From assembly GCA_024654565.1 (NCBI GenBank), contig JANLHM010000001.1, forward strand, positions 1 to 36,904: DNA of 36,904 bases, written 5' to 3'. The number at the start of each line of letters is the position of its first letter. The stretch's first letter is position 1. This stretch comes from Nanobdellota archaeon. GTDB lineage: Archaea > Nanobdellota > Nanobdellia > Pacearchaeales > GW2011-AR1. Shown here one piece after another: positions 3,316 to 4,703 of the stretch. Position numbers and translations under genes: made by a program. The notes beneath the pieces were generated by a model, which worked only from the letters and a program-made list of their open reading frames with translations, had not been told where the DNA came from and made no database searches.

Positions 3316-3330
3316 GGAATAATTTCGCTT

Positions 3331-3542
3331 GATTCAAAACCTGTGCCGTCTAAAAAATTAGCAATTGGGGACGTCAAGGATTTTTCGGGATTCGAGACCA
3401 ACGGTTCGAATAAATTAATAAATAAATATGTGGGTGCTAGACTCAAAACCTGTGCCGTCTAAAAAATTAGCAATTGGGGACGTCAAGGATTTTTCGGGAT
3501 TCTTTCACCAACGGTTCGAATCAATTTAATATGTGGGTGCTA
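3331..3542. repeat. Two tandem ~105-nt units, each ending with the tRNA-Leu 3' end
   Basis: Unit A (3331-3439) and unit B (3440-3542) share a ~63-nt nearly identical core (3331-3393 and 3440-3502, one clear mismatch near the start) and then a diverged stretch that keeps CCAACGGTTCGAAT. Each unit closes with TGTGGGTGCTA, which is also the complement of the tRNA-Leu 3' end at 3532-3542. On the minus strand the order is tRNA, unit B, unit A. No open frame of useful length is seen. Possible origins are repeated integration or excision at the tRNA 3' end, or local tandem duplication. Confidence 0.75.
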
Positions 3543-3614
3543 GGATTCGAACCTAGGTAAGGATGAACCACAAGAGCCTAAATCTTGCCCGTTTGACCAC
3601 TCCGGCACACCCAC
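3532..3614 (-). tRNA. tRNA-Leu (anticodon UAG)
   Basis: Read on the minus strand, 83 nt fold as a class II tRNA. The 7-bp acceptor GTGGGTG/CACCCAC is perfect with discriminator A. A D-arm (CCG...CGG) holds GTGGTCAAA, the anticodon stem CAAGA/TCTTG encloses TTTAGGC (anticodon UAG), a variable arm of ~13 nt follows, and the T-arm is CTAGG TTCGAAT CCTAG. The long variable arm, discriminator A and anticodon all agree with leucine (CUA/CUN codons). CCA is not encoded. No intron is evident. The 5' end (17 nt) is repeated at 3689-3705 and the 3' end at 3429-3439. Confidence 0.9.
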
Positions 3615-3617
3615 ATA
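3601..3617. repeat. tRNA-Leu 5'-end repeat, copy 1 (within the tRNA)
   Basis: The 17-nt string TCCGGCACACCCACATA covers the tRNA 5' end plus 3 nt of flank. An exact copy lies 88 nt away at 3689-3705, on the 5' side of the tRNA as transcribed. Confidence 0.85.
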
Positions 3618-3622
3618 CATTT

Positions 3623-3697
3623 TGTGCCGTTTTGCCTTTCTGAACAAGAAAGGAGGGGTTGATAAGGGGAAACTTGAGTTCCCATTATTCCGGCACA
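3623..3697. ncRNA. Predicted three-way-junction structured element upstream of tRNA-Leu
   Basis: A 7-bp closing stem (TGTGCCG 3623-3629 with CGGCACA 3691-3697) encloses two hairpins: CCTTTC (3635-3640) with GAAAGG (3648-3653), and GGGAA (3667-3671) with TTCCC (3679-3683), extended after one mismatch by ATAA (3662-3665) with TTAT (3685-3688). The right closing arm lies inside the 17-nt duplicate of the tRNA 5' end. Either strand could fold this way; a minus-strand transcript would place it in the 5' leader of the pre-tRNA. Nothing shows that it is expressed, and it could be a decayed tRNA copy. Confidence 0.35.
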
Positions 3698-3705
3698 CCC
3701 ACATA
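3689..3705. repeat. tRNA-Leu 5'-end repeat, copy 2 (orphan)
   Basis: Exact 17-nt copy of 3601-3617 without a functional tRNA body behind it. The downstream sequence on the minus strand does not form D, anticodon or T arms, so this is a fragment and not a second tRNA gene. Confidence 0.85.
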
Positions 3706-3764
3706 AGACCAAAACTCTTAGAAATCTTCTATATAAAAATGTTTATTATTTCAAAAAAGTAAAA

Positions 3765-4703
3765 TTATTTCTCTTTATTTCTTCTTTCTTTTGACTCTGC
3801 TTCTTTTTGTTTTATTTTTTCTTCAAGTTTAAGTTTTTCTATTAATTCCTTGTACCTATTTCTAATGGTCACTTCAGTTATACCCGCGATGTCAGCTACT
3901 TCCCTTTGAGTTTTCTTTTCATCATTCATAAGAGCTGCAACATAAAGAGCGGCAGCTGCAATTCCTGCCGGGCCTCTACCCGAAGTCAATTCAACGTCTC
4001 TAGCTTGGTCAAGTATTTTTAATGCATCATTTTGCGTCGCTGGAGACAACTTCAAAACTGAAGAAAATCTTGAAATGTAATCTTTTGGTGAACTTTGTTT
4101 TACCTTTATTCCCAATTTTCTTATTATAAATCTGTAAGTTCTTCCAATTTCTTTTCTTTCAACGTCTGAAGCTGTTGCCATTTCGTCAAGAGTTCTTGGA
4201 ATGTTGTAAGAACGGCAGGCTGCATAAAGGCAAGCCGCAATAACTGATTCCATACTTCTCCCCCTAACTAATCCCCTTTGCAAAACATAATTGTAAATTC
4301 TTGAAGCTTCATCTTTTACGACATTAGGGAGGTCAAGGTAAGACGAAATAACTCGCAGTTCGGCCATTGCAAGCCTTAAGTTTCTTTCAATTGACGTTGA
4401 AACTCTTTCCTGCCACTTTTTTAGTCTTAAAAATTTCCTTGTTTGTTTAGGTTCAAGTCGGTAAATGTCAGAAATTTCTCCAACATTAGTTGTTAAACCT
4501 TTGTCAAACTTTTGCATTGAGATTGGTGCTCCACCTCTCCCCTTCTTTTCGCCCTTGTCAAACTTGCCAGATAAATCAATTCCAGTGTCAACCATCTTTT
4601 CTTCAACAACAAGCCCACAATCTTTACAGATAATTTCTCCAAGATGGGTATCAAAAATGAGGTTCACGCCTCCGCATTCAGGACATTCTTTTATGTTTGA
4701 CAT
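3765..4703 (-). CDS. tfb: Transcription initiation factor IIB (TFB)
   Basis: 312 aa, the usual archaeal TFB length. An N-terminal zinc ribbon has Cys at 7, 10, 26 and 29 (CPEC, CKDC). A linker with RGGAPIS and two cyclin-type repeats (about 100-195 and 200-295) follow; the second contains a helix-turn-helix (TQREVADIAGITEVTIRNRY) that contacts the BRE. TFB bridges TBP-bound promoters and RNA polymerase. The C-terminal ~20 residues are a Lys/Glu-rich tail. A TATA box (4729-4736 on this strand) lies 26-33 nt before the ATG, so the transcript is short-leadered or leaderless. The gene diverges from psmA. Confidence 0.95.
   Translation of the reverse strand: MSNIKECPECGGVNLIFDTHLGEIICKDCGLVVEEKMVDTGIDLSGKFDKGEKKGRGGAPISMQKFDKGLTTNVGEISDIYRLEPKQTRKFLRLKKWQERVSTSIERNLRLAMAELRVISSYLDLPNVVKDEASRIYNYVLQRGLVRGRSMESVIAACLYAACRSYNIPRTLDEMATASDVERKEIGRTYRFIIRKLGIKVKQSSPKDYISRFSSVLKLSPATQNDALKILDQARDVELTSGRGPAGIAAAALYVAALMNDEKKTQREVADIAGITEVTIRNRYKELIEKLKLEEKIKQKEAESKERRNKEK

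Follow-up and report, generated by a model that had tools for sequence, protein, structure and literature searches.

The tRNA-Leu(UAG) gene of this archaeon is bordered by stray copies of both of its own ends, and the locus raises the question of what the sequences between these copies and the gene are and how they arrived there. The window, that is, the whole stretch of 36,904 nucleotides analysed, is contig C3:1-36904 of a 772-kb genome assembled in 12 contigs and 87.6% complete (G000). Its tRNA-Leu(UAG) gene is complete and uninterrupted and adjoins a TFB gene (3765-4703), whose protein has relatives carrying the names Candidatus Pacearchaeota and Nanoarchaeota. The explanation that we consider probable is that very short insertion elements without coding capacity have entered this tRNA gene at its 5' and 3' ends, where they ride as leader and trailer, and that their cores move between tRNA genes. 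In the tRNA sense, the order is TATA box, 5' copy, leader unit, tRNA, trailer unit 1 and trailer unit 2, and the features are as follows:

3732..3739, minus strand: probable TATA box TTTTTATA (sequence; TATA survey)
3689..3705, minus strand: outer copy of the tRNA 5' end, 17 nt (exact repeat; empty-site alignment with two sister genomes)
3616..3705, minus strand: leader insertion unit (MFE fold; core also present at further tRNA-Leu loci, direct and inverted)
3531..3615, minus strand: tRNA-Leu(UAG), intact host gene (ARAGORN; Rfam RF00005, 57.5 bits)
3428..3530, minus strand: trailer insertion unit 1, family F3 (repeat; model R2 match 3436-3497, 61.8 bits)
3513..3522, minus strand: anti-T-arm GATTCGAACC of unit 1 (sequence; predicted pairing with the T-arm)
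about 3425..3440, minus strand: tRNA 3'-end copy CTAGCACCCACATATT, 16 nt (repeat; shuffle test)
3327..3427, minus strand: trailer unit 2, tandem copy of unit 1 (repeat; model R2 match 3327-3388, 55.8 bits)

The original prediction had placed an exact 17-nt copy of the tRNA 5' end 88 nt upstream, and this was borne out: the 17-mer TATGTGGGTGTGCCGGA at 3601-3617 has an exact second copy at 3689-3705, and none of 5000 dinucleotide shuffles of the tRNA-Leu(UAG) flanks contained an upstream copy of at least 15 nt (maximum 12; observed 17). The 3'-end copy expected downstream is present as well, but it is 16 nt long and not 11 nt; downstream, only two of the 5000 shuffles had a copy of at least 11 nt (maximum 11). 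The unit of about 105 nt said to occur twice is found as two units of about 103-109 nt with a 67-nt core repeated at 97% identity, but only the first ends in the 3'-end copy; trailer unit 2 ends in GAATCAAGCGAAATT, its 3'-end copy having decayed. Unit 1 starts with the reverse complement of the T-arm, where its anti-T-arm is a perfect 10-nt complement to that of tRNA-Leu(UAG), and ends in the copy of the tRNA 3' end. The short sequence recurring in the units and the spacer was found as ACGGCACA, three times in the tRNA sense (3623-3630, 3451-3458 and 3342-3349), its leader copy pairing with the 5' copy, and the alternative pairings with the tRNA suggested earlier are indeed predicted by folding. 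In the MFE fold, the leader unit is closed by a helix of TGTGCCG (3691-3697) with CGGCACA (3623-3629), with two hairpins inside. The core of this leader, ATAATGGGAAC..TTTCCC(C)TTATCAACCC, recurs in direct orientation at the tRNA-Leu(UAA) of G004, and inverted at the tRNA-Leu(UAG) and tRNA-Leu(AAG) of G004 and at the tRNA-Leu(UAG) of locus L120. In many members of the family, the tRNA-Leu(UAG) gene beside TFB (L131-L135 and similar loci) carries larger leader units with GGGTCAAAC, a D-arm-like segment near their end. The tRNA was the only Rfam match in the window, and no credible match to an archaeal C/D or H/ACA guide RNA was obtained at window or locus level; a tRNA-modification guide RNA was rejected, motifs and spacing being judged by eye and a curated match being absent. 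A BHB intron and a permuted or split tRNA were also rejected, the tRNA-Leu being contiguous.

The comparison of sister species showed that units are gained or lost at a given tRNA. Where the sister lacks the unit, its flank aligns unbroken to the sequence beyond the outer copy, and the outer copy is for this reason taken as the original tRNA end. Such empty sites were found for tRNA-Arg(TCG) (filled in G006, empty in G005 and G007), for the leader of tRNA-Phe (filled in G005, empty in G007, with a flank identity of 81%), for tRNA-Ser(TGA) (filled in G000, empty in G001) and for the leader of the tRNA-Leu(UAG) in the window (empty in G001 and G002), where the similarity of the flank is lower and the alignment is shifted in register by a few bases; judged from this comparison with G001 and G002, the original 5' end beside the promoter is the outer copy at 3689..3705. 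The duplicated ends measure 12-38 nt with variable ends and the inserts 50-110 nt; leader copies stop mainly near tRNA base 15 or 24, and trailer copies begin within the T-arm or close to it. Each unit is a structured, covarying non-coding insert inside a tRNA gene, and the tRNA has been regenerated by duplication of its end. The scar of repeated integration proposed at first holds in so far as the units are insertions that duplicate tRNA ends, as seen from the empty orthologous sites, but it is not one of integrase and att sites, the inserts being this small, gene-free, of conserved structure, present at both ends and flanked by duplications of variable length. A layout common to the related genomes had been named as what would count against such a history; the sister genomes differ at the same tRNA. 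Among 247 tRNAs without a 5' copy, the TATA peak lies 30-34 nt upstream of the tRNA (fraction 0.397), whereas for the 34 tRNAs with 5' copies a TATA box is found 30-34 nt upstream of the outer copy at a fraction of 0.441 and upstream of the tRNA at 0.029. The probable TATA box of the window likewise has normal promoter spacing to the outer 5' copy and not to the tRNA. Because the TATA box is in register with the outer copy, the units are very likely transcribed with the tRNA, probably as leader or trailer, and to this extent the idea of an unusual pre-tRNA arrangement was also well founded.

Searching the genome with the window locus revealed the same layout at tRNA-Leu(CAA), whose acceptor sequence is different and is the one copied there. 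When all copies of at least 10 nt of a tRNA's own 5' or 3' end were counted, other tRNAs being masked, they were found at 11 of the 31 tRNAs of this genome, at 17 of 88 in four genomes of the genus and at 26 of 144 in the family loci beside TFB; the within-phylum comparison with other families gave 3 of 38, and shuffled flanks gave about zero. In the 31 tRNAs surveyed, the 3'-end copies belong to Thr, Gln(UUG), Gln(CUG), Phe, Arg(CCU), Lys and Leu, and the 5'-end copies to two Ser, Ile(UAU) and two Leu. Relatives carry end copies too, at different tRNAs, and the presence of a unit at a given tRNA is sporadic within the genus, e.g., tRNA-Thr(UGU) has one only in G000 among the five genomes examined. 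All archaeal genomes are metagenome assemblies, with a completeness of 75-90% for most. The tRNA-Ile(UAU) of G000 (C5:132524 onward; L018, L030) is preceded, 108 nt upstream, by a 15-nt copy of its 5' end and is followed by a tandem array of hairpin units of about 50-60 nt, which are of the family F2 type also found at Gln and Glu. This genome further encodes a tRNA-Leu with the anticodon AAG (A34), unusual for an archaeon (C1:143768-143852; L003 1501-1585); it is also present in most genomes of the genus, sometimes position-swapped with tRNA-Leu(UAG), and no tRNA-Leu(GAG) was seen.

A four-way-junction fold is common to many trailers from different species (family F1). The order in this trailer fold is an anti-T-arm strand, a short arm, a variable hairpin, a third hairpin, and the T-arm 3' strand with the acceptor copy. 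Nine F1 sequences had 97.2% paired cells as compared to 88.2% when shuffled. The model R1 gave 43 matches in the loci searched, 39 of them distinct, and these 39 sequences had 95.0% paired cells versus 73.9% shuffled and 154 double-change cells versus 40, in an alignment fitted to the R1 model and so biased to structure; sliding the partner by 1-3 columns gave 29-48%. Almost all R1 matches immediately follow the 3' end of a tRNA gene, and many isotypes are represented. At L161 the intact tRNA preceding the unit is gone, at L172 a tRNA-like end stands before the unit with no gene called, and at the Gln locus L171 the core is inverted. For F3, the family of the window, the helix was paired in 93.3% of cells versus 79.2% shuffled, with 15 double-change cells versus 5.4; its covarying helix has 10 pairs and a mostly conserved bulged C, also in a hand alignment, and covariation supports the inner helix and sequence only the closing one. 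The model R2, built from the inner part of F3 with the T-arm segments left out, matched nine places in the own genome, namely Glu, Leu(CAA), both units of the window, Thr, an Asp/Asn-type tRNA, an inverted Leu(UAA) and, twice, a displaced tRNA-Met end. In G003 it matched Asp, Ser, an inverted Leu(UAA), the edge of one contig and, weakly, one place that has no tRNA. Although the T-arm sequence was excluded, the R2 matches thus lie mostly at tRNA genes or tRNA fragments. At the tRNA-Leu(UAA) of G000 (C7:11014-11146; L004, L307), inverted F3-type cores lie in tandem directly 3' of the gene, and G003 has the same (L304).

Within single genomes, the cores are found at several tRNAs. A near-identical core stands at the Arg, Cys, Val and three Leu tRNAs of G040, and G043 and G131 have their own versions, each at several isotypes. 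For 38 units selected through R1, the core identity between different isotypes was 0.841 within a genome versus 0.741 between genomes, a difference as large as this being obtained in 0 of 2000 permutations, and the identity for the same isotype in different genomes was 0.725. The flanking arms match each host tRNA while the cores are common to different tRNAs of the genome. As judged from these identities, the cores have spread among tRNA genes and not by descent with one tRNA; a purely vertical, tRNA-specific trailer was rejected on account of the sporadic presence and the higher core identity within a genome. Gene conversion between units already in place could nevertheless account for part of this within-genome similarity. 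In each host, the anti-T-arm strand fits the tRNA (GATTCG/CGAATC, GATTTG/CAAATC, AAATCG/CGATTC and others), and to explain this match, a simple insertion would have to be followed by selection or templated by the target. Since few mutations separate the arm variants, selection after insertion could suffice; alternatively, the arm may be templated from the target tRNA.

In the mechanism that we propose, leader-type units lie in the D-arm region and trailer-type units within or close to the T-arm, and each insertion has duplicated the terminal 12-38 nt, leaving a complete tRNA and a stray end copy. The outer copy has stayed on the original promoter or 3' flank, so that the unit becomes a putatively transcribed pre-tRNA leader or trailer, from which RNase P and 3'-end maturation would presumably free the tRNA. 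That the odd leaders reflect a lost RNase P was rejected, the RNase P RNA having been found (L015:618-940). Movement may occur by replicative template switching or by recombination anchored on the conserved tRNA arms; repeats varying from 12 to 38 nt argue against a single transposase with a fixed cut and fit either of these routes. The leader fold would lock the stray 5' end in a hairpin, without competition for the tRNA, and selection would retain the copies that leave tRNA folding unblocked. In the folding of leader units, the acceptor helix reached 0.59 versus 0.13 with a scrambled middle (p=2e-4, n=17), and scrambling the middle freed the stray 5' end. Trailers folded at equilibrium used the distal copy whatever the middle (0.01 and 0.03, n=27), and the protection seen in leaders has no trailer counterpart. 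A natural reading of these models would be that the leader copy, being made ahead of the tRNA, needs to be locked away, and that the tRNA is already folded when the trailer copy emerges. The search for a partner enzyme covered reverse transcriptase and tyrosine recombinase. No reverse transcriptase was found as the mover in G000, G002, G005, G043, G097, G049 and G141 (completeness 75-88%), and G043 has 10 R1 matches. A tyrosine recombinase is present in 16 of 16 genomes, mostly as one conserved XerA-like gene, and is therefore uninformative. The XerA-like gene of G000 (C1:176382-176873; L288) lies about 2 kb from tRNA-Leu(CAA), in a neighbourhood kept in several genomes of the genus.

Instead of mobile inserts, the units might be regulatory RNAs or sRNAs cut from the pre-tRNA, or bistable anti-T-arm switches controlling tRNA maturation, their spread being incidental. 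The strong covariation agrees with this, the anti-T-arm pairs equally with the proximal or the distal copy, the acceptor pairing shifts to the distal copy in essentially all of the 27 trailers folded, and the RtT RNA of E. coli, identical in architecture, is reported to arise by release from a tRNA transcript and to be tied to the stringent response (PMC4986893). A regulatory RNA would, however, hardly be present so sporadically at a given tRNA within a genus or leave the host isotype free to vary, and we regard this reading as unlikely. The same mis-pairing at equilibrium is predicted for E. coli tyrV, which makes a functional tRNA, so equilibrium folding alone is no proof of regulation and was rejected as such for a switch. 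Plain tandem duplication or slippage of a tRNA end with its flank, decaying afterwards and without a mobile core, is less probable still. It would account for the clean tandems (87-nt units at Arg(CCU), 67-nt units at Leu(UAA), the Arg(UCG) leader in G003) and for copies that extend into the flank beyond the tRNA, as at Thr, but cores of one family stand at unrelated tRNAs within and across genomes, they covary in structure, they have sequence absent from the neighbouring flanks, and the empty-site alignments reveal that new sequence was inserted.

Scars of integrases, i.e., att duplications left after a virus or plasmid element was deleted, are a very improbable source, even though tRNA genes are the classical integration sites and a recent integrase element does occupy the tRNA-Met of this genome. 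That element spans 8.3 kb (G000:C3:76011-84347; L292), with tRNA-Met at C3:76011, a 368-aa integrase beside it and, at the distal boundary (84332), the tRNA 3' end repeated over 16 nt; it also contains a 247-aa recombinase-like ORF and an 848-aa ORF. It is, however, unlike the units and lies between tRNA-Met and an F3 unit array situated beyond the distal copy, and because it separates the two, the array is probably the older. The inserts of the units consistently measure 50-110 nt, keep a conserved structure and contain no gene remnants; no integrase or cargo genes lie between the unit repeats, no fixed att core or constant repeat was found (lengths 12-38 nt), and units occur on the 5' side too, with repeat ends that vary. 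The SSV/pNOB8-type integrase elements share with the units the insertion at a tRNA end, the direct repeat of that end and the regenerated gene, but the units differ in their size, the lack of integrase and cargo, the use of both tRNA ends, the variable repeat and the conserved RNA-like fold. In Caldiarchaeum subterraneum, a 5' fragment lies upstream of an intact tRNA-Thr and stems from a 1.8-kb element with a putative recombinase (PMC3293823); here, too, insertion inside the gene has repeated the tRNA 5' fragment upstream, whereas the units are tiny, non-coding and widespread. That short tandem repeats were misassembled is scarcely credible: the genomes are metagenome assemblies, but independent assemblies of many species contain non-identical copies with compensatory changes, and this layout is also seen in E. 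coli, whose genome is finished.

Insertion of short mobile units, the reading that we prefer, can be set beside known systems. The tyrT repeat has long been known from older literature, and these 178-bp repeats of E. coli (RtT RNA) are the closest known case, with the same architecture and no sequence match. At tyrT/tyrV, tandem units lie directly 3' of the tRNA with a 178-bp spacing, each ending in a 19-nt 3'-end copy AATCCTTCCCCCACCACCA, and in the tyrV fold a complementary strand pairs with the copy and closes it (GGGGAAGGAT/ATCCTTCCCC), around a multibranched core with a T-arm-like AAGGTTCG. The archaeal units likewise lie 3' of tRNAs, end in a tRNA 3'-end copy, are often tandem, and enclose a branched core between the copy and its complementary strand, as given by the F1 structure and its covariation; they differ in having several core families, many isotypes, insertions at 5' ends too, sporadic presence between sisters and cores common within a genome. 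The RtT model RF00391 gave 4 matches in E. coli, none in the window or 19 archaeal loci, and none in 20 archaeal relatives at E<=1, the own genome included, and membership in RtT was rejected on this ground. RtT RNA has been described as released from tRNA transcripts and linked to the stringent response (PMC4986893), and one study placed RtT-like sequences among BIMEs (PMC2965389). Like prokaryotic MITEs and REP/BIME sequences, the units are short, structured, non-coding and dispersed as copies in one genome, but they stand only at tRNA gene ends, without a fixed target duplication and with arms matched to the host tRNA. The constant target-site duplication and the terminal inverted repeats of a partner transposase that mark a MITE were not found, the duplication length being variable and the enzymes searched for being reverse transcriptase and tyrosine recombinase; tRNA is absent from a review devoted to prokaryotic MITEs (PMC10969869). 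In Methanopyrus kandleri, a species-specific palindrome of about 20 bp lies downstream of about half of the tRNAs (PMC5217627), also a conserved structured sequence just 3' of archaeal tRNAs, but no tRNA-end copy was reported for it.

No description of this class of tRNA-end units was found in the open-access literature. They resemble mobile elements of very small size that carry no genes and find shelter in essential ones. We tentatively suggest a class of gene-free, 50-110-nt mobile elements with cloverleaf or hairpin structure, which would live only inside tRNA genes, rebuild the end that they interrupt, ride on the transcript and adapt their arms to the host, the archaeal and bacterial (RtT) versions possibly being one phenomenon. 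Broken or duplicated tRNAs in short-read annotation of unit loci may mislead. The tyrT repeats of E. coli have so far been an isolated oddity, and the same architecture now extends across an archaeal lineage, at many tRNAs and at both ends. The empty sites together with the covariation make the origin and role of tRNA-end repeats directly testable. Our results suggest that essential tRNA genes may host minimal parasites, which survive by restoring what they break.
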